Source of the DNA: Thermoproteota archaeon
GTDB lineage: Archaea; Korarchaeota; JAOZGF01; JAOZFZ01
Assembly (NCBI GenBank): GCA_027492035.1
Contig: JAOZFT010000004.1
Location: 602,449-666,448 of the forward strand
Reading direction: 5' to 3'
Length of the DNA stretch: 64,000 nucleotides
Part shown: positions 3,686-18,804 of the stretch, one piece after another
Layout of the letters: the number at the start of each line of letters is the position of its first letter
Position numbering within the stretch: position 1 is the stretch's first letter
Position numbers and translations under genes: made by a program
The notes under the pieces: model-generated
Seen by the model: only the letters and a program-made list of their open reading frames with translations
What the model was told of the DNA's origin: nothing
Database searches by the model: none

Positions 3686-4555
3686 CTATGAAATTATATT
3701 TAGGGCTTTGTACATGTTTCTATAGCTTTTCTTCAATTCTTCATTGCTCATTTTGTTTTTCACTTTATTTATTTCCTTTATTGCTTTTCCTTGGTTAAAA
3801 ACCAGTTTTTTCACCAGATTTATTTTGTTTTCTATTTCCTCAATGTACTCTGTTAAATTTTTGTTTTCTGTTTGTAAAGTTAGGATTAGTGAAGGATTTT
3901 GGCTCAGTATTGCTTTCATCCAGAGGAGTAGAACTTTGAAGGTAGGCCCTGAAACCCCCTCTATTTCTTTTAAGTTTCTGTTTTCCAACATAAATGCCAA
4001 AACAAGACTTAAAAAATAGTTTAATGAAATGGTTAAACCCATTAATTCTTCATGTTTTCTTAAATCCAAAGTAATGAATTTACATTCATTAAATATCTCT
4101 TTTGCTTTGTCAAGTTCCTTTTCCTTGTCTTTCACAGGTACTAAAACAATTTTTTCCTGGTTTATTTCCTTTACTCCTGGCCCGAAAAGCGGATGAAGAG
4201 AAATAACTTGCACGTTCCTTTTTCCAATTTTTTCCAGTGCTTGGAAAACTTTTTCCTTCAACGAAGTTATCTCTACTATTGTCTTTATTTTTCCAGTCTT
4301 TAAGGTGGTTTCGTTAAAAATTTTGTTCAGTATTTTTGGGGTTTCTGGTATTGGTAGAGAAAGGAAAACAATATCAGCGTTTTCTACTGCTTTCTTAAAT
4401 GATTCTTCAAACTCTACTCCAAGCATTGAAGCTACTTTCTTTCCTTTCTCTTTATTTATATCATTAATCAAAACTTGGAACTTTTTATTTTTGAAATATT
4501 GGGTAAAAACTTGACCCATTGACCCCGCTCCACCTATAACTGCGATCTTAACCAT
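3686..4555 (-). CDS. tyrA: prephenate dehydrogenase
   Basis: This enzyme oxidatively decarboxylates prephenate to 4-hydroxyphenylpyruvate with NAD(P), the committed step to tyrosine. The N-terminal Rossmann motif is IGGAGSMGQ, followed by the acidic INDINKEKGKK, and the TyrA motif HPLFGPG sits near residue 128. The C-terminal half is helical, as expected for the dimerisation domain. At 289 residues it is the standard monofunctional size, with no fused chorismate mutase or ACT domain. It lies downstream of the aromatic operon on the same strand but is separated from it by the pilin gene and two spacers, so it probably has its own promoter. Confidence 0.88.
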   Translation of the reverse strand: MVKIAVIGGAGSMGQVFTQYFKNKKFQVLINDINKEKGKKVASMLGVEFEESFKKAVENADIVFLSLPIPETPKILNKIFNETTLKTGKIKTIVEITSLKEKVFQALEKIGKRNVQVISLHPLFGPGVKEINQEKIVLVPVKDKEKELDKAKEIFNECKFITLDLRKHEELMGLTISLNYFLSLVLAFMLENRNLKEIEGVSGPTFKVLLLWMKAILSQNPSLILTLQTENKNLTEYIEEIENKINLVKKLVFNQGKAIKEINKVKNKMSNEELKKSYRNMYKALNIIS

Positions 4556-4906: not shown

Positions 4907-5350
4907 TTAAGGTATAACTACTGATTTAGGATAGTCTTTCCCTGAAGCAGTGTGAACAGTTACTTCATATGTTATCCCTGACTGCCAGCTTCCGGATGTA
5001 ATGCTGGAAGGAGGACCAGATATTGTTATTTGCTGCCCACCACCAACAGCAACTGTGAAAGGAAGAGTAGGAGATGACACTTTACTATTATCTGGTATAC
5101 CATTCACGAAAACATCAGTAATTGTTACATCTGTTGAACCTGTGTTATTAACAATAACCTGTACATCAGTGCCGTCATAATATATAGCAGTTATTTCTAA
5201 CTTTTCATACCTGGTAAATGTCCCAACCAAACCTGTTGCCCATAACGCCACTGCTATGGCTATAGCTATTGATACAGCGACGATTATAACTGTTGCTACA
5301 ACAGGATGAATGCCTTCCCTATCTCCTATAAATAAAAGTTTCCTTCTCAT
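4907..5350 (-). CDS. archaeal type IV pilin-like protein
   Basis: The 147-residue protein has a short charged N-terminus (MRRKLLFIGDREG) followed directly by IHPVVATVIIVAVSIAIAIA. This is the class III signal peptide and hydrophobic assembly helix of archaeal pilins and archaellins (DUF1628-like N-terminus). Prepilin peptidase would be expected to cut near the REG/IHP junction. The rest is a beta-rich, Thr/Val/Gly-rich ectodomain (residues 45-147) with a VNNTGSTDVTITDVFVNG segment. No pilus ATPase, TadC or peptidase gene is nearby, so assembly proteins must be encoded elsewhere. A near-leaderless promoter precedes it. Confidence 0.85.
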   Translation of the reverse strand: MRRKLLFIGDREGIHPVVATVIIVAVSIAIAIAVALWATGLVGTFTRYEKLEITAIYYDGTDVQVIVNNTGSTDVTITDVFVNGIPDNSKVSSPTLPFTVAVGGGQQITISGPPSSITSGSWQSGITYEVTVHTASGKDYPKSVVIP

Positions 5351-5590: not shown

Positions 5591-7030
5591 TTAATTGGTT
5601 ATGGAGTTCAAAGCTTCACAGAATTCTTTTAAACCTAGAAATAAATCTTCCTTTCTAGTTGAAACGTTGATTCTTATGAATTCGGTGTATTTTTGGCCGA
5701 ACGCTGTACCAGGGGCGACGGCAACTCTCTTCTTTTCAAGTAACTTTTCAGCGAAATCTAAACTATTAAACTTGTCTTTTAAAACTTTAATGAAGAAGTA
5801 AAGCCCGCCTTCAGGCTTCATGTACTTCACTGGTTGATTCTTCAATAATTTATCAGTTAATGAAACATTTCCTTTCATGAACTCCTTGTATTTCTTTTCC
5901 TTTTCTGTTTCCAAAACAGCTAAACCTGCTTTTTGGATAAATGGAGGTACACAAGTTACTGTTAAGGAAATAAGCGAAGAAATTTTGTCAATGATCTCCT
6001 TCTTTCCAATGGCGTAACCTAATCTAAAACCGGTCATTCCATAAGTTTTAGAGAAGGAGTCAACATAAATTGTGTTTTCGTAATTGTATTCCAAAACTGT
6101 TTTGAAAGGTTTAAAAGTTAATTTTGAGTATGTTTCATCAGCTAAAACCAGTAACTTTTTCTCTTCAGCTAACTGAACTATTTCCTCAAGTTCTTTTTCC
6201 CCATAAATTTTCCCTGTAGGGTTGCAAGGGTTATTAATAATTATCATTTTGGTGTTTTCATCGATTTCTTCTTTAAGTTTCTCCGAATCTATCCTCCATC
6301 CTTTCTCAAGCTCTGTATTTATTTCCCCAATTAATCCTTTTGCTTTCATTGTTAAGCTTCCATAAACAGGCCATGAAGGATTAAAGATTATTACCTTCTC
6401 CCCAGGTTTAATGTTGGTTGTTATTGATGCATAAATACCAAATTTGCCTCCAGGAGTTAAAACTATATTTTCATTTGCGAAGTCTAAACTGTTTTCCTCA
6501 TTCACTTTCTCAATTATTGCTTTCTTAACTTCTTCTAAACCCGTAGGTGAGGAATAACTCATGTTTTTTTTGGTTAATGAGTCTTTTAAGGCATTAATTG
6601 CTTCTTCAGGTGGGCCGTAACAGGGTTCACCTACTTCTAGATGCACAACTTTTTTTCCAAGTGTTTCAAGCTCTTTAGCCTTTATGAATAAATTATAAAA
6701 AGCCTTACTTCTTTCTTCTGCCTTAAACCCTTGAATTCTCCTTGATTCATTAATTACTATACCTAATACTGTTAAAATATACTCTTTCTCTTTCCTGCTC
6801 ATTTCTAACTTTTCAAGAACTCCCTTTATTAATTCATTTTCCCTTTTAACATCTAAAACAGGTAAGTTTCTTTCCTTTTTTAGTTTCCCCACTTCCTCAA
6901 CCAACTTTAGCCTCTTCAGTAAAAGAGCTGCTGTACTTAAGGTAACGTCATCTATTTCCTGTCTCCTTTTCTTTATTTCTGCATAGCTTCTGTTCAGGTT
7001 CAATTTTTCTCCTTTGGTTTTAGAGGACAT
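5591..7030 (-). CDS. chorismate mutase-aminotransferase fusion protein
   Basis: This 479-residue protein appears to join two enzymes. Residues about 13-100 form an AroQ-type helical chorismate mutase (IKKRRQEIDDVT, LLLKRLKLVEEVGKLK, then VKRENELIKGVLE), which would turn chorismate into prephenate. Residues about 105-479 form a fold-type I class I aminotransferase: LEVGEPCYGP, NNPCNPTG, ADETYSKL, and SFSKTYGMTGFRLGY with PLP lysine near K328. The partner suggests that the aminotransferase acts on prephenate or on phenylpyruvate/hydroxyphenylpyruvate. Its start overlaps the end of aroC by 11 bases, so translation is probably coupled, and it is the last gene of the aromatic operon. Substrate specificity is inferred from context. 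Confidence 0.85.
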   Translation of the reverse strand: MSSKTKGEKLNLNRSYAEIKKRRQEIDDVTLSTAALLLKRLKLVEEVGKLKKERNLPVLDVKRENELIKGVLEKLEMSRKEKEYILTVLGIVINESRRIQGFKAEERSKAFYNLFIKAKELETLGKKVVHLEVGEPCYGPPEEAINALKDSLTKKNMSYSSPTGLEEVKKAIIEKVNEENSLDFANENIVLTPGGKFGIYASITTNIKPGEKVIIFNPSWPVYGSLTMKAKGLIGEINTELEKGWRIDSEKLKEEIDENTKMIIINNPCNPTGKIYGEKELEEIVQLAEEKKLLVLADETYSKLTFKPFKTVLEYNYENTIYVDSFSKTYGMTGFRLGYAIGKKEIIDKISSLISLTVTCVPPFIQKAGLAVLETEKEKKYKEFMKGNVSLTDKLLKNQPVKYMKPEGGLYFFIKVLKDKFNSLDFAEKLLEKKRVAVAPGTAFGQKYTEFIRINVSTRKEDLFLGLKEFCEALNSITN

Positions 7031-8114
7031 TTTTTAAGACCCCTGCCTTCAAACAATTATCTACTATAACCAAGTTTGTTATGCTTTCAACTACAGGTAC
7101 AGCTCTAGGGACTATGCAAGGATCATGTCTTCCCCTCAGAACCATTATTTCCTCCTTCATCTCCTTTAAATTAACTGTATTTTGGGGTTTGCTTATTGAG
7201 GGGGTGGGTTTAAAGAATACCTTAAATGTTAAAGGCATTCCTGTACTTAAACCTCCAAGGACGCCTCCTGCATTATTTGTCAAAGTAACTATTTTTCCCT
7301 TTCTCAAAACGTATTGGTCATTATTTTCTGAACCCTTCATTTCTGAAACTTTAAATCCTGCTCCAAACTCTACAGCTTTAACTGCAGGTATGGAAAAGAA
7401 TCCCTTACTAAGTTCAGACTCTAAAGATTGGAAAACAGGTTCACCTAATCCCACAGGTAAACCGTAAACGATTCCAGCCACAACTCCTCCCAGGCTGTCT
7501 CCCTCTTTCTTTGCTTCAATAATTGCCCTTTTCATTTTTTCAGCTGTTTCGGATTCTGGGCATCTAACAGGGTTTGAGTACCTTTTTTCACTTATTTCTT
7601 CTCTGCTTAACTTCTTAACCCTTATTTTTCCTACTTGGTAAGTGTAGGTTAAGGTCTCTATTCCTAGTTCCTCCTTAAGTATTTTTTTAGCTATTGCTCC
7701 AGCCATGACGAAAGAAGCTGTAATTCTTCCTGAAAACCTTCCTCCCCCCCTGTAATCATTGTATCCTCGATATTTCACTCTTGCAGGGTAGTCTGCATGT
7801 CCAGGCCGTGGTAAATCTTTTATTTCCATGTAGGGCCTAGAGTCCATCTTTCTGTTTTTTATAATCATTGCAATAGGCGCCCCGGTTGTGTAACCTCTGA
7901 AAACGCCTGAAAGGATTTCCACTTTATCTTTTTCAAACCTTGTAGTGGTTATTTCTGGATAAAACGGCTTTCTTAAGTCTAACTCCTTCTGAATATCCTT
8001 TTCATTTAGTTTCAAACCTGCTGGGCACCCATCAATCACAACCCCAACTACTTTGCCATGGCTTTCTCCAAAACTTAAGATTTTAAATCTGTCCCCGAAA
8101 ATGTTTCCAGTCAA
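7020..8114 (-). CDS. aroC: chorismate synthase
   Basis: The enzyme makes chorismate from EPSP with reduced FMN. Characteristic segments are FGESHG near residue 16, GGGRFSGRITAS (the flavin and phosphate-binding region), and RGRHDPCIVPRAVPVVE near the C-terminus. Length (364) is typical. The start is TTG with AGGTTA upstream. It sits between aroA and the chorismate mutase fusion, matching its step in the pathway. Confidence 0.96.
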   Translation of the reverse strand: MTGNIFGDRFKILSFGESHGKVVGVVIDGCPAGLKLNEKDIQKELDLRKPFYPEITTTRFEKDKVEILSGVFRGYTTGAPIAMIIKNRKMDSRPYMEIKDLPRPGHADYPARVKYRGYNDYRGGGRFSGRITASFVMAGAIAKKILKEELGIETLTYTYQVGKIRVKKLSREEISEKRYSNPVRCPESETAEKMKRAIIEAKKEGDSLGGVVAGIVYGLPVGLGEPVFQSLESELSKGFFSIPAVKAVEFGAGFKVSEMKGSENNDQYVLRKGKIVTLTNNAGGVLGGLSTGMPLTFKVFFKPTPSISKPQNTVNLKEMKEEIMVLRGRHDPCIVPRAVPVVESITNLVIVDNCLKAGVLKNVL

Positions 8115-8136
8115 AAATTTAACCTCTCCAAACTTT

Positions 8137-9426
8137 TTAACTGTTTAAATCAATTATTTTCGCTCCTAACCTTCTCATTTCATTCAAAAAACCAGGATAT
8201 GAAACATCAACGCTTTCTTTTCCCTTAATAATGCTTCCACTCTCTAAGCCTATAGCTAATGAAGTGAAGGCCATAAACAGTCTGTGGTCGTTGTAGCTCT
8301 CAAAGACTCCTCCTTTTAATTTCTCTTTCCCCTTTATTACTAAACCATCTCTCTTCTCACTTATTTCCACACCTAACTTTGCTAACTCGGTCGCTAAGCA
8401 ATGTATCCTATCTGACTCTTTTTTTCTGGCGTGTTCAACTCCTTCAATAATTGTTTCCTTCTTGGTTTTAGTAGCTACAACCGCTAAAACAGGCAGTAAA
8501 TCCGGCGTGTCTTCTAAATTGAATTTTCCACCTTCTATTTCGCCAGCTTCAAAAAACAATTCGTTTCTTTTAACCTTTATGTTCTGCCCCATTTCTTTAA
8601 GGTACTCAATTATTTTCATGTCGCCTTGTGGCTCTGTGAAACTTAGTTTCCTCACTACTAAATTCGACTTTGAAACAGCTGCAGCCGCTAAGAAAAAAGA
8701 AATTGAACTGAAGTCTCCAGGAATTCTGAATTTTAAACCTTTTATTTCACTTTTAGGCTCCACCATAAACTCCTTAAATCCTTCATTTTCAACTTTTACA
8801 CCGTACTTTCCTAAAACATTTAAGGTCATTTCTATGTATGGTTTAGAGACTATTCTGTCCTTAACCAATATTCTCGTTTCTTCACTTGCCTTCACTGAAG
8901 AAATTAATAAAGCTGAAATAAATTGGGAAGATGTTCCTCCAGTAATTTCTGTTTCACCACCTGTAATTCCTCCTCCACTGACTATTACCGGTGGGAAACC
9001 ATTAAGTCTAGTTGACCATGCTTCCACACCTAAATCTTTGAGTGATTTAAGAAGAGGACCCATGGGTCTCTTTCTTAAACTTTCATCACCTGTTAAGACA
9101 CTGTATCCCTTTCTCACTAAACCTGAAATAGCTGTTAAGAAACGAATGGTTGTACCTGAATTTCCAGCATTTATCACATCTTCAGGGGTCTCTGGTAAAC
9201 CTATCCCCTCCACTACCAACTTCCTTCTTGTTCTTTTAACTTCAGCACCTAACTTCTCAACTCCTTCAATTGTTGCTTTAGTATCTTTTGAAAACAAAGG
9301 GTTAATTATTGTATTTCTTCCGGTAGTTAACAGCGAAACAACTACTGCTCGGTGGGTATAACTTTTACTTGGGGGGGCTTCAACTTTTCCCCTTATCTTC
9401 GTTGGGTAAACCTTGATTGAAGACAT
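8137..9426 (-). CDS. aroA: 3-phosphoshikimate 1-carboxyvinyltransferase (EPSP synthase)
   Basis: EPSP synthase joins shikimate-3-phosphate and phosphoenolpyruvate. Visible signatures are PSKSYTHRAV near residue 18, NAGNSGTTIRFL near 85, RKKESDRI near 340 and YNDHRLFMAF near 375, the classic set of the two-domain inverse alpha-beta barrel. Length (429) is typical. The start is ATG preceded by GGTGA. It lies 8 bases after the shikimate kinase gene in the operon. Confidence 0.96.
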   Translation of the reverse strand: MSSIKVYPTKIRGKVEAPPSKSYTHRAVVVSLLTTGRNTIINPLFSKDTKATIEGVEKLGAEVKRTRRKLVVEGIGLPETPEDVINAGNSGTTIRFLTAISGLVRKGYSVLTGDESLRKRPMGPLLKSLKDLGVEAWSTRLNGFPPVIVSGGGITGGETEITGGTSSQFISALLISSVKASEETRILVKDRIVSKPYIEMTLNVLGKYGVKVENEGFKEFMVEPKSEIKGLKFRIPGDFSSISFFLAAAAVSKSNLVVRKLSFTEPQGDMKIIEYLKEMGQNIKVKRNELFFEAGEIEGGKFNLEDTPDLLPVLAVVATKTKKETIIEGVEHARKKESDRIHCLATELAKLGVEISEKRDGLVIKGKEKLKGGVFESYNDHRLFMAFTSLAIGLESGSIIKGKESVDVSYPGFLNEMRRLGAKIIDLNS

Positions 9427-9434
9427 TTTTTAGT

Positions 9435-10307
9435 TCACCACTTCCCTGCTTTATTTTTTGAATTAACTTCTGTAACAATCAATTCCCCTTTGAATTCTCT
9501 CCATCTCTCAATAATCTCTCTACAGGTCTCTTTCTCACAAATAGCAAACATGGAAGGGCCTGTACCTGAAACTCCTGCTGTCAATGCACCTGTTTCTACG
9601 GCTTCAATTAAAGGAGCTGTTTCCAAGTTTAACACTGCGGAAATAAGTAATCCGTTCAAGAAAGAAGCTTCCCAATACTTTCCTTTCAAAGCTAAATTGA
9701 AAGCCTCCTCTGACAAGGAACTGAGCTTCTCCATCTTTTTCACGTTCACCTTAATTGTGTAAACCTTCTTTTTAGGTACTAATATCACAACCTTAAACTC
9801 CCTTAACTCCTCTCTCCTAATTAGTTTCTTCTTTAAGTTGTCTGTGAAAACTATTCCTCCGAAAAAGGAGGCGGATGCGTCATCTAAAGCCCCTGTAACT
9901 GAAACTTTAGCTTTTAAAGATGCCTCAACTCCTAACTTAACAGCTTCCAAGTCCTTTATTTTCCTTTTTAGGGCGTAAGCTGTAGCCAATACTGTAGCGT
10001 TAGCTGCAGCGCTTGAACTTTTCAACCCTCTTGCTATAGGTATTTCTGAAAAAGTTTTCACGCGGGCCCCATACTCGGTAGCTTTAAAATATCTCAAAGT
10101 TGCCTTTACCGCTTCCTTAACCAGTTCAGGGTTTTCTTGTGGATTGTTTAGGATTTCAACAATTACTTCCTCCTCTCCTTCAACAAGTTCCACTTCAGCC
10201 TTTGTTTCTAGTTTCACACCTATAGCCACTCCCTTCTTGGCAGGTATGGCATTCACCACTGTTACAGCTCCAAAAGCTCTGGCTCTACCTTTCAAATCCT
10301 TTTTCAA
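9435..10307 (-). CDS. aroK: archaeal shikimate kinase (GHMP family)
   Basis: This 290-residue kinase is not the bacterial P-loop AroK but the archaeal GHMP-superfamily replacement. The ATP-binding motif ARGLKSSSAAANATVLA is at about residues 90-106, and the C-terminal glycine motif GVSGTGPSMFAI is present. It phosphorylates shikimate with ATP. The TTG start lies behind GGTGA and overlaps the aroE end by 23 bases. Position between aroE and aroA supports shikimate rather than homoserine or mevalonate as substrate. Confidence 0.93.
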   Translation of the reverse strand: MKKDLKGRARAFGAVTVVNAIPAKKGVAIGVKLETKAEVELVEGEEEVIVEILNNPQENPELVKEAVKATLRYFKATEYGARVKTFSEIPIARGLKSSSAAANATVLATAYALKRKIKDLEAVKLGVEASLKAKVSVTGALDDASASFFGGIVFTDNLKKKLIRREELREFKVVILVPKKKVYTIKVNVKKMEKLSSLSEEAFNLALKGKYWEASFLNGLLISAVLNLETAPLIEAVETGALTAGVSGTGPSMFAICEKETCREIIERWREFKGELIVTEVNSKNKAGKW

Positions 10308-11175
10308 GTGTTTTCACCACGGCTTCTTTCATTTTCTTTAAAGGGGGTTTTTTTCCAGTCCATATTTTGAAAGAAGCTGCACCTTGCCCAACCAACATGT
10401 CTAATCCGTTTATTACTTCAGCCCCTTTTTCTTCAGCTAAGTGGAGAGTTTTAGTCTTTAATGGATTGTATATTACATCGAAAACTGTGTGGTATGGTTG
10501 AAAAAGATTTTTCGGGATCAATGATTCTTCAGTGTTTGGGTACATGCCTACAGGTGTAGCGTTAACAATTAAATCAGATTTAGGGATTGCTTTTTTGAGT
10601 GAGTTCATGTTTAGTTTTTCAGCTTCCAAAACAGTTTCTCCCCCTTTTAGTTTATTGAAGAACTTAATAAGTTCTTTCGCTCTTTCAACTGTTCTGTTAA
10701 GCACAATTATTTTTTCAACATTTTCTTTGATCAAGAAATAAATTACTGCTTTTGCAGCTCCTCCAGCCCCCAAAACAACAGCCCTTTTATTCTTCACTTT
10801 AATTTTACGCTTTCTAAAAGTGGCTTCCACGCCTTCAACATCTGTGTTGAAACCTATTAACTCACCATTCCTGTTCAGTACAGTGTTCACTGCTTTCATT
10901 TGTTGTGCCGATTCATCTAAGTCATCAAGGTAACGCATAATTTCTTCCTTGTAAGGTATTGTTACGTTAAATCCCCCAACTCCCAACCCCCTTAATCCCT
11001 CCACAACCTTTCTAAGCATGATCCTTTCAATATTGAACGCTAAATATACTCTGTTCATTTTCAACTCTTTGAAAGCTTCATTTTGCATTAGAGGGGAGAG
11101 GGAGTGGTTAACAGGTAACCCTATTAAACAATAAAGTGTAGGTGGCCTATTACTCTGTTCTACTGGCCAGAACAT
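10285..11175 (-). CDS. aroE: shikimate dehydrogenase
   Basis: The protein reduces 3-dehydroshikimate to shikimate with NADPH. Motifs are NHSLSPLMQN (substrate serines), GFNVTIPYKE with the catalytic lysine, NTDVEG, the nucleotide-binding GAGGAAKA near residue 137, and NATPVGM. Length (296) is normal. The start overlaps the aroD end by 26 bases; a few N-terminal residues may belong to a later start. Confidence 0.95.
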   Translation of the reverse strand: MFWPVEQSNRPPTLYCLIGLPVNHSLSPLMQNEAFKELKMNRVYLAFNIERIMLRKVVEGLRGLGVGGFNVTIPYKEEIMRYLDDLDESAQQMKAVNTVLNRNGELIGFNTDVEGVEATFRKRKIKVKNKRAVVLGAGGAAKAVIYFLIKENVEKIIVLNRTVERAKELIKFFNKLKGGETVLEAEKLNMNSLKKAIPKSDLIVNATPVGMYPNTEESLIPKNLFQPYHTVFDVIYNPLKTKTLHLAEEKGAEVINGLDMLVGQGAASFKIWTGKKPPLKKMKEAVVKTLEKGFER

Positions 11176-11857
11176 TTAGAAAACCTCTTAACTCATTGAT
11201 GGAGGGCTGTCCAGGAGCTGCTTTTTCATTCGGTAATGAGCAGTATGTGAAGGGAGCGCCTAAATAAACACCTAAAACTCTTGAAATTAAACCTAAACTG
11301 CCCATGCAGAAAGCTATTAATTTCTTCCTTTTCACCTTGTACAGGTTCAAAATTTTCAGGTTGTCGCTTGTTTCTTTGGCAAATGTAACAATTTTCGCAA
11401 TGTCCCCTTTACTTTCTGCATCTTTTAACTTTTCATTAAGTGATCCTTCTTCAGGAGTCCCTGTGAAGTCATGGTGTGAAGCAATAACCTCTACTCCTTT
11501 TTCATCCATTAAGTCTAGGAGTGAAGGATTATCTTTTATGGTTTCAATTTCTAAATCGAAGAAGTGAGGGCTAAGCTCCGTTACTTTTCTCACAATTTCT
11601 AGCCTTTCCTTTTCCTGTCCCCTAAAATAACCTCCTTCCTCCTTTCTTCTAACTGTAAAAATAAACTTTGTCTCTTCTCCAAAATCGTGCAGTGTTTCAG
11701 CTATCTCTGAAAAGTTTTTTGATTCTTTAAAATTGAAAATGTCCCACCTAACCTCAACGTATTTGACACGGTATTTTCCTGTTTTTGAAAGCAGAAACTT
11801 GAGCTGTCCAGTTTTTTCAGGCATTAATGTAACACAAATTTTATCTGTAAGGTTCAT
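11150..11857 (-). CDS. aroD: 3-dehydroquinate dehydratase, type I
   Basis: This is a class I Schiff-base dehydroquinase of 235 residues. It has VEVRWDIF at the start of the barrel, ASHHDFTGTP with the catalytic histidine, IAKIVTFAK with the Schiff-base lysine, and YCSLPNEKAAPGQP at the lid. It dehydrates 3-dehydroquinate to 3-dehydroshikimate. It stands alone rather than being fused to aroE as in some bacteria and plants, but overlaps aroE. Confidence 0.93.
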   Translation of the reverse strand: MNLTDKICVTLMPEKTGQLKFLLSKTGKYRVKYVEVRWDIFNFKESKNFSEIAETLHDFGEETKFIFTVRRKEEGGYFRGQEKERLEIVRKVTELSPHFFDLEIETIKDNPSLLDLMDEKGVEVIASHHDFTGTPEEGSLNEKLKDAESKGDIAKIVTFAKETSDNLKILNLYKVKRKKLIAFCMGSLGLISRVLGVYLGAPFTYCSLPNEKAAPGQPSINELRGFLNVLASRTE

Positions 11858-11869
11858 TCTTGACTTCCT

Positions 11870-12925
11870 TTATTTTTCAAGAATAAACTCTTCAACTTCC
11901 ACACCGAAATGTCTAGCTTTTTTCTGAGAAAAATAAACAAGTACTTTGTCTCCCTTTCTTATTTTCTTGACTGAAACTGGGTTTCCATCTTTATTGACTA
12001 AATTTACTGTTTCAGCGTTTTGAAGAAGAATAGAGCCTGTTTCTTCCCCCGTTTTAGCTTTCAGCATTATTAATGGCCTTTTCTCTATTTTCACCCTTCC
12101 GACTACCACCTTCTCTGATTCACCCTTGAAATTAACAGTTAACACTTCATCCCCGCTTTTTAACTCAGACAGGTACTTTGTCCTGTTTTCATCCACTAAA
12201 ATGTAGCTATGAATTGGTCCTGCATTAACTCTGAATGGTCTGGTTTCTACAAAGGGATTTTCAATTGTTTCGCTGTGTACAAGGAAAAGGAAATTCCCTT
12301 GGTTACCTACAAGCATTCCTTCTCCCTTGTTTAGCATTGTTACAGTGTCAACACATGCTCTGTCACCTAAACCTGTCTCTTTAACTTCAAAAACTTCTGC
12401 CTCCACTAATTTTAATTTTTTAACGCTTTTTATTTGTGAAAACAGGGTTTCAAGTTCACTTTTGTTTCTAATAGGCACAATCACCCCGTCAACCCCCTTC
12501 TCCAGTATAGTTAATAATGTACCTATCTTTTCTTTACCTTTCTCAACATAGATTTTTGTTCCTTTTTTCTGTAATTTAGCGATTAAGTTTTCAATTGGAA
12601 TTATTCTCCAGTTTAGCAGTTCCAGTATCACTGACTCAGCCCCCTCTTCTGCAGCCTCCACAACTTTTGCTTCCTCTTCCCCCTTCTCTATTTTTAAAGA
12701 AACAGAAAATTTCTTAACTTGCGGATCAACTTCTCTTTTGTTTCTGTAAACCACTACGTCTGCCTTCTTTGAAGGTGAAATTATTGTGGCTCCCTCTATC
12801 CTTCTTTCTCTGATTTCTTCAATGTAGAACTTGTCCACGCCATGTTTCATGGCCTCTTCAACTATAGGGACTGTTTCCTCAGTTAAACAAGGCAGTTTAA
12901 TAATTATCTTTCCAAGTTTATTCAT
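11870..12925 (-). CDS. aroB': 3-dehydroquinate synthase II (archaeal type)
   Basis: This is the archaeal NAD-dependent enzyme that converts 2-amino-3,7-dideoxy-D-threo-hept-6-ulosonate (ADTH) into 3-dehydroquinate, replacing bacterial AroB. Conserved segments are [19 protein letters not shown] and [14 protein letters not shown] in the middle and [15 protein letters not shown] at the C-terminus. The start chosen is the ATG preceded by GGAGG at about nine bases, giving 351 residues; an upstream ATG at 12961 would add 12 residues inside the previous gene and lacks homology. The gene overlaps the end of the ADTH synthase gene by 8 bases. Confidence 0.94.
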
Positions 12926-13706
12926 TTTTGAAAGCCTCCAAAGCCTCCTTAACCGATGCATTTTCTAAAATTATCATTCTTAAACATTTGAGAAGTAAAG
13001 TTGGATTTTCAGCTTGGAAAATGTTTCTTCCAAAAGTTATTCCTGCAGCTCCAGCATCCATGGCTCCTTTAACCATTTTGAAAACATCCTCAACTGTTTC
13101 TTGTTTAGGTCCACCTGCAATCACCACAGGAACTAAACTTGATTCAACAACCTTTTTGAAACTTGCAACAGTTCCTGTATACGTTGTTTTAACTATGTCT
13201 GCACCAAGTTCCCCAGCTATCCTTGTTATGTGTGAAACAGTTGAAGGACTGAACTTATCTTTTATCTTTTCTCCTCTTGCATACATCATAGCTATCAATG
13301 GTAAACCGAACCTGTCACATTCATCAGCAACCCTTCCTAATTTAACAAGCATTTCATGTTCATTTTTTGCACCTATGTTTACATGTACAGAAACCGCGTC
13401 AGCTCCTAACCTTATAGCTTCCTCTATAGATGAAACTTGAACCTTAAAATTCGGTTTTAAACTTAAATCCGTGCTTGCTGACAAATGCATTATCAACCCT
13501 AGATTTGGCGGTTTTTCTAAGTTTCTTAGAACTCCTTTATGAACAATTATTGACGTTGCTCCTCCTTTCTCAATTTTTTCTATGGTTCCATATATCTCCT
13601 TCAACCCTTTAATTGGTCCCATACTTACTCCGTGATCCATGGGTACACAGATCATTTTTCCGTTCTCAGTTATCCTGCCTAAACGAATTATTTTTCCTAT
13701 ACACAT
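12918..13706 (-). CDS. aroA': 2-amino-3,7-dideoxy-D-threo-hept-6-ulosonate (ADTH) synthase
   Basis: This aldolase-like TIM barrel condenses aspartate semialdehyde with a deoxy-keto-hexose phosphate to ADTH, the archaeal entry to the shikimate pathway that bypasses DAHP. Segments seen are CVPMDHGVSMGP near residue 20, ADIVKTTYTGT with the presumed Schiff-base lysine, VPVVIAGGPK and GAAGITFGRNIFQ. Length (262) is typical for the MJ0400 family. A strong AGGTGG precedes the ATG. The upstream neighbours supply its substrate. Confidence 0.94.
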   Translation of the reverse strand: MCIGKIIRLGRITENGKMICVPMDHGVSMGPIKGLKEIYGTIEKIEKGGATSIIVHKGVLRNLEKPPNLGLIMHLSASTDLSLKPNFKVQVSSIEEAIRLGADAVSVHVNIGAKNEHEMLVKLGRVADECDRFGLPLIAMMYARGEKIKDKFSPSTVSHITRIAGELGADIVKTTYTGTVASFKKVVESSLVPVVIAGGPKQETVEDVFKMVKGAMDAGAAGITFGRNIFQAENPTLLLKCLRMIILENASVKEALEAFKNE

Positions 13707-13723
13707 TTCACTGACACTTCCAC

Positions 13724-14794
13724 CTATATGAAGCCTTTAACTTTCATTAACTCAGCTAAAAGTAGAACACATCCTGCAGCCCCCCTTATTGTATTATGTA
13801 CAAGTAAAGAGAAGAGTAATGTTTTCTCGTTTTTTCCATACCTTAACCTGCCGATTGTAACTGACATTCCTGGAACAGAGCCAGCTAACTTGTCAAATCT
13901 AGGTTGAGGTCTGTCTTTTTCTTCTCTAATTATTAACGGTTTTTCCGGTGCCGTAGGTAATTTCAGTTTCTGCGGTTCACCTATGAAATTCCTTATTTCC
14001 TCCTTTACTTCATCTAAATCAACTTTTTCCGACAGTTCCAAGTAAACATTTTCTAAATGTCCATCTTTAACAGGTACTCGGTTACATGAAGCATGTATCT
14101 TTACATTGTAATCTTTGAAGGAGTTGTTTTCAAGTCTTCCAAGTATTTTCCTTGTTTCATTCCCTATCTTTTCCTCTTCTTTTTCTATGTAAGGAATTAC
14201 ATTATCTATTATATCTAGTGAAGAAACTCCTGGGTAACCTGCCCCTGAAACAGCCTGTAAAGTGTTAACTACAACTTTTTCTACTCTGTACAAGTTTGTT
14301 ATCGGCTTCAAAGCCAGAGATAAACCAACTGTTGAACAGTTAGGGTCAGTAACTATGAAGCCTTCTGTTCCCAGTTCTCTCTTTTGTGCATCAATCACTT
14401 CAAGATGTTCAGGGTTAACTTCGGGTATAACTAATGGAACCATTTCATGGAGCCTGTAGGCGCTTGCGTTGCTTAAAACAGGGAACCCTTCCTTTGCAAA
14501 CTTAATTTCTACCTCCTTGGCTGCAGAGGATGGTAAGGACGAAAAAACAATGTCTACATCTAAATCTTTAGTGTTCACAGCCGAAATGTTCTTCTCTTTT
14601 ATTTCTTCAGGCAATTCGGTTGGTAACAGCCAGTTAACAGCTTCTCCATACCTTTTGCCGGCTGAACTGTAGCCGAACAATGTTTCTAGTTCAAAATAGG
14701 AGTGCTTATTTAACATGTCAACAAATCTTTGGCCAACTGCACCTGTCGCCCCTAGCAAAGCTACCTTCATCTTTCCCATTTCATCTTTCACCAA
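13724..14794 (-). CDS. asd: aspartate-semialdehyde dehydrogenase
   Basis: The enzyme reduces aspartyl phosphate to aspartate semialdehyde. It shows the NADP motif GATGAVGQRF, the catalytic cysteine in DPNCSTVG and the histidine in KIHASCNRVPV. Length is about 350 residues. Several starts are possible (TTG at 14794, GTG at 14791, ATG at 14779); GGAG lies at good distance from the first two. It overlaps the aspartate kinase end. Here its product feeds aromatic synthesis directly, as well as lysine, threonine and homocysteine branches. Confidence 0.95.
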   Translation of the reverse strand: MVKDEMGKMKVALLGATGAVGQRFVDMLNKHSYFELETLFGYSSAGKRYGEAVNWLLPTELPEEIKEKNISAVNTKDLDVDIVFSSLPSSAAKEVEIKFAKEGFPVLSNASAYRLHEMVPLVIPEVNPEHLEVIDAQKRELGTEGFIVTDPNCSTVGLSLALKPITNLYRVEKVVVNTLQAVSGAGYPGVSSLDIIDNVIPYIEKEEEKIGNETRKILGRLENNSFKDYNVKIHASCNRVPVKDGHLENVYLELSEKVDLDEVKEEIRNFIGEPQKLKLPTAPEKPLIIREEKDRPQPRFDKLAGSVPGMSVTIGRLRYGKNEKTLLFSLLVHNTIRGAAGCVLLLAELMKVKGFI

Positions 14795-16007
14795 ACTTTC
14801 TCCTTAATAAGTTTAAAGCCTCCCTCCTTCTACTCCAAGGTACGAAAAGCCTGATTGAGGAATGGATTGTAAGTAAACCAAAAACATTTATCTTAGCCTC
14901 AGCTAAAGGCGAAACTGCTCTAGCTATAACTCCAGGTGTCGTCTCAAGTTTTTTACCTTTTAAAGTAACTAGTGCTAAATTCTCTATTGTTGAAATAGCC
15001 TTGACAGCATTTTCCCTTCCTCTGTTGTCTATTACTTCATGTAATTTATTCAAGATTTCACTGGGGTTTCCATCAACATAGAAAATAACTGCCTTCTCCT
15101 CTGTTGAAATCGCAAGTATTTTCCCTTTGCTTAACTGAACCTTTTCAGTTAAAACTTTGAGGGTTTCAGGCTTACTTGCAGCTTTCCCTACCACCGTCAC
15201 CATGCAAACCGGTTTATTATAGCTTGTTAAACTGAAACTTAAAGCATCTCCCTCAATTACAGTTCCTCCATTCGTTAAGGATCCGTTGCTGATTCCTACA
15301 ATCCTTATCTTCATTCCCTTAAGTATATACTTCAAAGCCTTGTTAGCTATAACCTTTGCTCCACTTAAAGTTAAATAAGAAGCTTCTTCCACATTTATTT
15401 TGTTAAGTAATTTAGCGTTTTTCACTTTAGCCGGATCTGCAGTATAAAAGCCTTCAACATCCTTGACTAAAACAACTTCTTTCAAACCTAAACAGCTTGC
15501 AAGAACAACAGCAGTTAAGTCACTGCCTCCTCTACCCATAGTAGTTATTTCTCCCTTTTCTGTTTTGCCTAAGAAGCCACAAATTACAATATTATATCCT
15601 TTCTCAAGTAAAGGCTTAAACTCGTTTCGAATTTTCAATTTACATTTCTTTATTAACGGGTTTGCGTTACCGAAAACATTGTCTGTTATTATTGGCCAAA
15701 GTTTAGATGAAGGAGTAATTAATTCTATTTTTACATTCATTGTTTTCAAAGTGGAGTAAAGCAGTTTAGCAGCTAACTCTTCACCAGAAGACATAACTAA
15801 ATCCATGTCTCTCTTAGAGACTTCTTTAAAAGATGCTTTTTCAGCTAATTCAATGAGGCTGTCGGTCATGTTCTTTAAAGCTGAAACAACAATTACCAGT
15901 CTCTTCCCTCCATCAACCTCCCTTTTTACTAGTTCCGCAACTTTCCTTATTGATTTCCAGTCGGTTAGCACAGAACCTCCGAACTTAACCACTGATAAGT
16001 TCTTCAC
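14781..16007 (-). CDS. lysC: aspartate kinase with C-terminal ACT region
   Basis: This amino-acid kinase phosphorylates aspartate. It begins with VVKFGGSVLTD, contains TMGRGGSDLTAV near residue 160, and ends with two ACT-like segments (about 265-408) likely to bind an effector amino acid. The GTG start is favoured because GGAGGAGGT lies five bases upstream; an in-frame TTG at 16022 would place that ribosome-binding site inside the gene. It is the first gene of the aromatic operon. Which effector (tyrosine, phenylalanine, threonine or lysine) controls it cannot be read from the sequence. Confidence 0.94.
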   Translation of the reverse strand: MKNLSVVKFGGSVLTDWKSIRKVAELVKREVDGGKRLVIVVSALKNMTDSLIELAEKASFKEVSKRDMDLVMSSGEELAAKLLYSTLKTMNVKIELITPSSKLWPIITDNVFGNANPLIKKCKLKIRNEFKPLLEKGYNIVICGFLGKTEKGEITTMGRGGSDLTAVVLASCLGLKEVVLVKDVEGFYTADPAKVKNAKLLNKINVEEASYLTLSGAKVIANKALKYILKGMKIRIVGISNGSLTNGGTVIEGDALSFSLTSYNKPVCMVTVVGKAASKPETLKVLTEKVQLSKGKILAISTEEKAVIFYVDGNPSEILNKLHEVIDNRGRENAVKAISTIENLALVTLKGKKLETTPGVIARAVSPLAEAKINVFGLLTIHSSIRLFVPWSRRREALNLLRRKFGER

Positions 16008-16102: not shown

Positions 16103-16115
16103 TTGTTCAGAACAA
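16103..16115. promoter_or_regulatory. perfect 13-bp dyad upstream of aromatic operon
   Basis: TTGTTCAGAACAA is a perfect palindrome about one hundred bases before the aspartate kinase start. A weak AT-rich promoter-like stretch lies next to it (16121-16134), and a better one lies farther upstream. It is a candidate operator for a repressor of the operon; the cognate regulator is not in the window. Confidence 0.4.
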
Positions 16116-16230: not shown

Positions 16231-16240
16231 TATAAACTTT
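16231..16240 (-). promoter_or_regulatory. probable TATA box of aspartate-to-aromatic operon
   Basis: On the minus strand AAAGTTTATAA is preceded by GGT and A residues, a good archaeal BRE/TATA fit. It would give a leader of about 200 bases before the aspartate kinase gene, which includes the 13-bp dyad. Confidence 0.4.
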
Positions 16241-16497
16241 ACCGCCTCTCATAAAAACCAAAACCCCTTTTTCCATGTCTCCTTCAAAAATAATGAGAAA
16301 GTAGTCGGAAAAATGTTTTTAATTCCTTTATAAATTTTACGTTTTTTGAAGCAATAAGCACCTTTATTATCATCTATGTACTTTTTAAAACAAAAATCCT
16401 TGGCTATACCAACTCTTATGCGAAAACGTTGCAAAGAGGATGTGATAATTAAACAACCATTAATAACCCTTAAACCATATTTTTATCAAGCTAAGAA

Positions 16498-17513
16498 CTA
16501 AGCAACGCATTTGTTGAAACATGCCTTCTCATAATTTCTTAAATCCTTCTTACATAATTTTTTATTTTTTCCATGTCTTACTCTCTCCTTCTCCATCCCA
16601 ATATTATAAGCACAAATTAAATAATACATTATCCACCCGGAGAATTTACTCCATCTTTCCGCAAATTTTCTAACAATATCACCTGATTGAAGTTTTCCAC
16701 TGAAATAGAAGTGTGAAACTGCTTTTCTAGCTCTTGGATCATCTGGGACGCAGAGATTCATTCTGCCCAATGTCGTTACCAATACCGTTTCTGCAGTCCA
16801 CCCTCCAACTCCTTTGAATTTCATCAATTCTTCAATTGCGTCTTCGCCATTCATCTTTTTAAGCTTCTCCAAATCATATCCTTCAGTAATTTTTAACGCC
16901 AATTCTTTGATATATCTTGATTTTTGAAGAGATAATTTACATTTCCTCAATTCGTTTTCGTCAACCTTTGCCAATGTTTGGGGTGAGGAGAAATTATAAT
17001 ATGACTCGCCGTTAGTTTCGTCTTCTCCCCAAATATCTTAACTAAGGCTCCAGTTATTGCATAGGCTGCCCGTAAAGAAATCTGCTGCTGAATTATTACC
17101 CTAATTGCTCCCTCGAACATGCTTGCTCCAATTCCAGGTGATCTAAGGCCATAAAGTTTATCCTTTACCTCACAAAAGCGTTTCATCTTGGCTCATGAAC
17201 CTATACTGCTCCTCAAGGTCATCCCTTAATCTGAAAATATCTGTAACCTTCCCTAATAAATGCTTTTCTCTTCCGCATCTAACTTAGAGAACACATTAAT
17301 CCTTAATTTTGGTTTTTCCACTGTGCCAATGGAAACAACTATCTCAGTTATTTTCCCTTTCAATAAATTAATTCTTTCAATTAAGCCTTGTCTCCAATTT
17401 ACTTCCCGTTCAATACCTTCTTTGTTATTTCGTCCAACTTGTTCCTTATATCCTCCTTTAAGTACCAGGCTAGCCTTGGAAAGATACTCACCTTCCACTA
17501 AAACCTCTTCCAT
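16498..17513 (-). pseudogene. AlkA-like HhH-GPD DNA glycosylase, broken by frameshifts
   Basis: Three pieces of one base-excision glycosylase lie in different frames. The N-terminal piece ends near 17253. A middle piece, reading LLGKVTDIFRLRDDLEEQY, is in another frame. The first frame then resumes with LYGLRSPG and VIIQQQISLRAAYAITG. After another shift at the G4 run (16980-16983) comes the helix-hairpin-helix LMKFKGVGGWTAETVLV and the catalytic-type aspartate region CVPDDPRARKAV. At least three indels are needed: near 17250-17267, near the A4 run at 17174-17177, and at 16980-16983. The intact ancestor would have removed alkylated purines. Sequencing error is possible, but neighbouring genes are clean, so real decay is more likely. 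Confidence 0.8.
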
Positions 17514-17988: not shown

Positions 17989-18804
17989 TCACCATTTACT
18001 TTTATAGCTTCCAATTACTTTAATGAATAAAGTATTTTCACGCAAGTCCTTTAATGCTTCAGAAATTTTCCTGTCGCGTAAGTTCCCTTCTATATCAACA
18101 TAGAAAGAATAATTCCACGGCTGATCCTTTATAGGTCTTGACTCTAAATGTAACATGTTAATGTTTCTCTTGGCAAATGCCTCTAAGGCTTTGTAAAGAG
18201 CTCCAGGCTTATGTTCAGTTATAAAAATAAGTGATGTTTTATCGCTGCCATCTGAAATAAACAAATCTCTTCTTAAAATAAAGAATTGGGTGTAATTGTT
18301 TTCTGAGTCTTGGATGTTCTCCCTTAAAACTTTCATGCCGTAGAGTTCGGCAGCATATTTGCTGGCTATGGCTGCTGAATTTCTCTTGCCAGAACTTTTT
18401 ACCTCCATAACACTCCCTGCAGTGTCGAAACTAGGTATTATTTTGAAATTCATTTTTTCAAGGAAGTTTTTACATTGAGATAACGCTTCAGGATGAGAAT
18501 AAACGTATTCTATTTCATTAAGAGAAGATTCCGGGAAACCAATTAATACATGTTCAATTTTCAATGTAACTTCCCCGATTACATAAGCTTCCTCTTCAAA
18601 TAAAAGATCCATTACCTCCCTTATTCCTCCAGTTATGGAGTTACGTATGGGTAACACAGCAAAATCTATCTCCTCATTTTTTAAACCTTCAAATACATCT
18701 CGGAAAGTCTTGTATTGCTTGAACTCTATACTCTCCCTAAAAAATATTTTGGAGGCCTGTTCACTGTAGCAGCCCCTAACTCCTTGGTAACCAATCTTTT
18801 TCAT
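17989..18804 (-). CDS. pheA: prephenate dehydratase
   Basis: The enzyme converts prephenate to phenylpyruvate for phenylalanine synthesis. The N-terminal dehydratase lobes begin YQGVRGCYSEQA and include LPIRNSITGG. The C-terminal ACT domain (about 185-271) has the phenylalanine-binding signature HLESRPIKDQPWNYSFYVD and ends KVIGSY. Length (271) is normal for the monofunctional form. With tyrA and the chorismate mutase fusion, the window holds both branches from prephenate. It is 64 bases downstream of ilvE on the same strand and may be co-transcribed. Confidence 0.93.
   Translation of the reverse strand: MKKIGYQGVRGCYSEQASKIFFRESIEFKQYKTFRDVFEGLKNEEIDFAVLPIRNSITGGIREVMDLLFEEEAYVIGEVTLKIEHVLIGFPESSLNEIEYVYSHPEALSQCKNFLEKMNFKIIPSFDTAGSVMEVKSSGKRNSAAIASKYAAELYGMKVLRENIQDSENNYTQFFILRRDLFISDGSDKTSLIFITEHKPGALYKALEAFAKRNINMLHLESRPIKDQPWNYSFYVDIEGNLRDRKISEALKDLRENTLFIKVIGSYKSKW

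Follow-up and report, generated by a model that had tools for sequence, protein, structure and literature searches.

A colinear archaeal operon that probably supplies prephenate from aspartate by the ADTH route, headed by its own aspartate kinase paralogue

The DNA analysed here is a stretch of 64,000 nucleotides (the window) from a Thermoproteota archaeon of the Korarchaeota lineage, taken from the end of contig C9 in a genome (G000) of 1.87 Mb that is 93% complete. It carries ten minus-strand open reading frames head to tail, at positions 5591-16007, the first of which encodes an aspartate kinase. We consider it probable that these genes form a complete aromatic supply operon, leading from aspartate to prephenate by the archaeal route through 2-amino-3,7-dideoxy-D-threo-hept-6-ulosonate (ADTH), and that the first gene is the pathway's own aspartate kinase paralogue. 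What the sequence itself provides is the set of enzymes, their order, a kinase clade separate from the classical enzymes, recurrence of the arrangement in several groups of archaea, and another aspartate kinase, of classical type, beside homoserine dehydrogenase in the same genome. Aspartate kinase is the textbook gatekeeper of the branch leading to lysine, threonine and methionine. A broader proposal, held more tentatively and with the balance slightly against it, is that a third type of aspartate kinase arose in archaea, reserved for aromatic amino acids and controlled by an aromatic product, not by lysine, threonine or methionine. If that is true, a separate kinase line tied to aromatics across archaeal groups would be the ADTH route's own entry valve, and the effector of this kinase could be measured directly on the purified enzyme.

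Profile searches named the family of each of the ten frames, and gene order matches reaction order without exception. First comes a short aspartate kinase paralogue (14781..16007; 408 amino acids; TIGR00657, 271.3 bits, cut-off 208.7), whose GTG start at 16007 is preceded by GGAGGAGG. It is followed by asd, encoding aspartate-semialdehyde dehydrogenase (13724..14779; TIGR00978, 446.8 bits), ADTH synthase (12918..13706; TIGR01949, 319.9 bits), 3-dehydroquinate (DHQ) synthase II (11870..12925; PF01959, 358.8 bits, with NCBIfam sub-model matches below their own cut-offs), aroD, encoding type I 3-dehydroquinate dehydratase (11150..11857; TIGR01093, 170.6 bits, cut-off 139.3), and aroE, encoding shikimate dehydrogenase (10285..11175; TIGR00507, 287.7 bits, cut-off 200.2). 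The remaining genes are aroK, encoding an archaeal (GHMP) shikimate kinase with a TTG start (9435..10307; TIGR01920, 281.8 bits, cut-off 126.85), aroA, encoding EPSP synthase (8137..9426; TIGR01356, 419.4 bits), aroC, encoding chorismate synthase (7020..8114; TIGR00033, 441.9 bits), and a fusion of chorismate mutase with a class I/II aminotransferase (5591..7030; CM_2 at 23-100, Aminotran_1_2 at 127-461). The fusion itself suggests prephenate as the substrate of the aminotransferase, which could instead take 2-oxo acids.

The first-pass annotation had placed the same ten genes here in pathway order, and the frames, family matches and order agree with it. It had also described all junctions as shorter than 25 bases. 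From the kinase end, the nine junctions measure +1, +17, -8, +12, -26, about -23, +8, +22 and -11 bases; the description thus holds for every gap, the largest being 22 bases, while one overlap reaches 26 bases provided that aroE starts at ATG 11175, as taken here (the aroK start was taken as TTG 10307). Once ten genes share a cluster and a strand, the chance of this exact order is 1/10! = 2.8e-7. Such colinearity could reflect a physical complex of the enzymes through which intermediates are channelled, as the tight junctions and the recurrence of the exact order across distant archaea might suggest. However, order alone is no proof of contact, and it differs elsewhere: in Odinarchaeia, asd lies inside the cluster, between aroD and aroE. 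A channelling complex therefore seems quite improbable as the source of the order.

The archaeal ADTH route, also proposed by the annotation, is supported. The ADTH synthase match exceeds its curated cut-off of 299.45 bits, DHQ synthase II is present, and no DAHP synthase (PF00793) was found in this genome or in nine others with the arrangement, the control being found in 11 of 14 genomes. There is no DKFP-forming enzyme within the ten-gene run. Elsewhere in the genome, a second DhnA-type aldolase (G000:C24:25361-26110) scores 202 bits against TIGR01949, below the cut-off.

Evidence that the operon kinase differs from the classical enzyme came from a maximum-likelihood tree. Short kinases, of about 410 amino acids, form one branch (100/100) apart from the classical kinases of about 470 amino acids. 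Within the tree, short kinases linked to DapA have a branch of their own (99/96), and kinases linked to aro genes divide between a main group (86/92) and a branch of three from Bathyarchaeia (100/99). The aro-linked kinases share 37-57% identity with the window kinase and about 26-31% with the classical one, and most searched genomes with an aro-linked kinase have a classical one as well. The operon kinase belongs to a distinct aspartate kinase line, which seems to have diverged for the aromatic pathway in several archaeal groups.

The possible fates of aspartate semialdehyde in this genome argue in the same direction. The second aspartate kinase, of classical type (469-473 amino acids), adjoins homoserine dehydrogenase elsewhere in the genome, a linkage from which we infer that it serves threonine and methionine; the operon kinase is therefore plausibly dedicated to aromatics. 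For asd, a search of the same genome found only the operon copy, the other PF02774 match being ArgC, which lies beside a LysW-dependent kinase (LysZ) and LysW. With only one asd found, the enzyme must also feed homoserine dehydrogenase, and hence threonine and methionine. The earlier view that both genes are dedicated to aromatics, which raised the question of second copies in the genome, can thus be kept, by inference, for the kinase, which has a classical counterpart, but not for asd, which has none that was found.

Lysine was rejected as the destination of the kinase in this genome. According to this alternative, the short kinase belongs to the lysine pathway and its aro linkage is incidental; its nearest relatives outside aro clusters do lie beside DapA/LysA, with DapA-linked examples in methanogen-like and other genomes, and this genome encodes two DapA-family proteins. 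However, it contains LysW and LysZ, and no convincing DapB (best match 45 bits, versus 95 in a true DapB operon). Both DapA homologues look like other aldolases, the first being a fusion with formaldehyde-activating enzyme (Fae) and the second a neighbour of 2-oxoacid:ferredoxin oxidoreductase-like genes, and the LysW-type genes suggest that lysine is not made from aspartate in this genome. Taken with the separate branch of the DapA-linked kinases, these data make a lysine role highly improbable. Since there is no convincing DapB and the DapA-family proteins resemble other aldolases, aspartate semialdehyde should have two uses, homoserine and aromatics, served by two kinases and one asd. The separate classical kinase, the lack of DAHP synthase and of a convincing DapB, and the LysW-type genes together make aromatic dedication the best explanation for the operon kinase.

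Additional evidence came from gene order in related archaea, a comparison proposed with the first-pass annotation, which revealed the same order within the phylum and beyond it. In a genome of the same family (G001), the same ten genes stand in the same order, followed by tyrA; in one from another family of the phylum (G017), the contig covers the kinase, asd and the beginning of ADTH synthase and then breaks off. In a Nitrososphaerota metagenome genome (L104), all ten genes and tyrA occur in order. Two Thaumarchaeota loci of the Nitrososphaerales (L082 and L092) and one from Bathyarchaeota (L108) keep the order as far as the loci show, L092 having an insertion ahead of aroA, and a Jordarchaeia locus (L093) has the first four genes. 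Shorter forms of the arrangement are thus found in further Thaumarchaeota, in Bathyarchaeia and in Asgard archaea. In three Bathyarchaeia loci (L121, L156 and L157) and in Borrarchaeum (L103), the kinase directly precedes ADTH synthase with no asd between them. L157 is the most telling case for separate kinases. In this Bathyarchaeote (L157:1927-9970), a DapA-DapB-kinase-asd-LysA-DapF operon is divergent from a neighbouring cluster that runs from kinase and ADTH synthase to tyrA; each has its own short kinase, and a classical kinase is found elsewhere in the genome.

The sequence and predicted fold of the window kinase suggest how its control may differ. The catalytic residues K8, E76, GRGGSD 158-163 and D183 are conserved. 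Pfam recognizes an AA_kinase domain and only the second of two ACT domains; a single ACT was recognized in each of the three aro-linked kinases scanned, versus two in one DapA-linked kinase. The predicted fold nonetheless has two ACT-like units, and aligns to solved aspartokinases over nearly its whole length (Z about 25-33) with a high root-mean-square deviation that probably stems from domain movement. A Pro-Gly dipeptide in the first ACT occurs in none of 12 aro-linked kinases, compared with 10 of 11 diaminopimelate (DAP)-linked and 15 of 17 classical kinases, while a glycine of the second ACT is kept in all kinases compared. The changed first ACT is consistent with altered effector control: the kinase may have been freed from feedback by lysine or threonine, and would probably respond to an aromatic product.

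Several observations weigh against a kinase dedicated to aromatics. The first-ACT Pro-Gly is also missing from a lysine-operon kinase (L157 5134-6315) and from Korarchaeum-type kinases, so its loss was rejected as a unique mark of aro linkage. A single clean clade of aro-linked kinases was not obtained, the three-member Bathyarchaeia branch standing apart. The comparison took in 87 ADTH-synthase loci whose upstream sequence was long enough, a sample biased to the best window matches: 78 have neither gene directly upstream, five have both kinase and asd upstream, three only a short kinase and one a classical kinase. The genome is 93% complete, and the absences reported for it are therefore provisional. 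Moreover, its sole asd is common to two branches and not limited to aromatics, and Korarchaeum-type genomes have the short kinase paired with asd away from ADTH synthase. These last two points would also fit a short kinase-asd pair that provides a general supply of aspartate semialdehyde and whose place at the head of the aro cluster would be a matter of chance or convenience, not of aromatic dedication. This explanation is unlikely, since homoserine dehydrogenase has the second full-length kinase beside it, the operon-type kinase adjoins ADTH synthase without asd in the Bathyarchaeia and Borrarchaeum loci, and L157 keeps separate kinases for its lysine and aromatic operons.

The ten genes are predicted to be transcribed together, starting from a promoter near 16233-16251. 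The dedicated kinase, with co-expressed asd, would then increase the supply of aspartate semialdehyde at times of demand for aromatics, while asd would remain common to aromatics and threonine/methionine. A conserved 19-base block on the minus strand at 16233..16251, TGAGAGGCGGTAAAGTTTA, is a probable promoter with a predicted adjoining regulator site. Its counterparts are TGAGAGGCGATAGTGTTTA in G001 and TGAGAGGCGGTCGAGTTTA in G017, and the distance from block to kinase start is about 225 bases in the window, 145 in G001 and 35 in G017. Exact matches to the common pattern number one each in these three genomes, always before the operon kinase, and zero in three Korarchaeum-type genomes. The leader RNA has no Rfam match. 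Compared with shuffled sequences, the leaders of the window (z -1.2) and G001 (z -0.7) fold no better, and that of G017 folds more strongly (-3.35); as only the G017 leader does so, no shared leader structure is claimed. A palindrome in the leader, TTGTTCTGAACAA (16103-16115), has one match versus 0.42 expected with at most one mismatch, is absent from the other leaders, and was left aside. A sigma-70 promoter scan, whose model excludes archaeal promoters, gave 35 matches versus 35.2 expected.

Genes of prephenate metabolism lie on both sides of the run, outside it and on the same strand: tyrA, encoding prephenate/arogenate dehydrogenase, downstream (3686..4555), and pheA, encoding prephenate dehydratase with an ACT domain, upstream (17989..18804). 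A pilin-like gene (4907-5350) separates the operon from tyrA in the window; in G001, tyrA directly follows the fusion gene. Also upstream is an HhH-GPD DNA glycosylase-like gene (16498-17186), seemingly split into two overlapping frames, with a Pfam match in the second part only. The Fae fusion mentioned above (L226:2896-4386, on G000:C21) is a 496-amino-acid protein with a DapA-family aldolase (dapA, 243.8 bits) and a formaldehyde-activating enzyme domain (203.1 bits), and the DapA model also matches open frames of similar length in G001 and G017. Its domain make-up suggests an aldolase that hands formaldehyde to tetrahydromethanopterin.

Other placements of the kinase were seen among the loci. 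In a Korarchaeum-like genome (G004), the only genes of this set at the loci examined are ADTH synthase with aroD and, apart from them, a short kinase paired with asd (L044:8855-10250 and L191:1306-3509), an apparent remnant of the pathway. In genome G048 (L077:1563-10436), an ADTH synthase-aro cluster ends, past aroC, with kinase and asd, and this kinase is a divergent one. On a Nitrospirota contig, the gene immediately before ADTH synthase is an aspartate kinase of classical type (L118:1756-3954), and the linkage may therefore have arisen separately in bacteria.

The ADTH/DKFP route was reportedly established by White in 2004, in Methanocaldococcus. The operon resembles that pathway in having ADTH synthase and DHQ synthase II as the first committed enzymes, acting on aspartate semialdehyde. 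Searches of an open-access library, which covers no subscription journals, turned up no description of an aromatic operon headed by an aspartate kinase; papers outside it may have one. M. jannaschii has a threonine-sensitive aspartokinase (PDB 3c1n, 2hmf) that is similar to the window kinase in overall predicted fold (Z 29.7 over about 390 residues), but is a different paralogue with 25-26% identity, and the effector motif of the first ACT is altered in the window kinase. Lysine operons of methanogen-like genomes and of Bathyarchaeia L157 likewise have a short-kinase paralogue beside the pathway that it feeds; however, their product is lysine, and the DapA-linked kinase scanned keeps two recognizable ACT domains. 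A survey of archaeal protein fusions lists chorismate-pathway fusions, but the word aminotransferase is absent from its main text (PMC11237513). In Desulfovibrio vulgaris, a bacterium, the aro supraoperon adjoins the trp operon and begins with aroA' and aroB' (PMC1173090); the similarity lies in its opening with the two alternative-route enzymes, and a kinase/asd head is unmentioned in its description. In Halobacterium, where the ADTH route has also been investigated, the ADTH synthase gene is inside the trpCBA operon (PMC4162585), whereas here it lies in one run with the kinase, asd and all shikimate genes. Another parallel is with the aro clusters of ammonia-oxidising Thaumarchaeota, which have ADTH synthase, DHQ synthase II, aroD, aroE, aroK, aroA, aroC, the chorismate mutase-aminotransferase and tyrA in the same order, but without the kinase and asd head. 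The colinear archaeal aro cluster is already known, and we rate the present arrangement as a variant of it.

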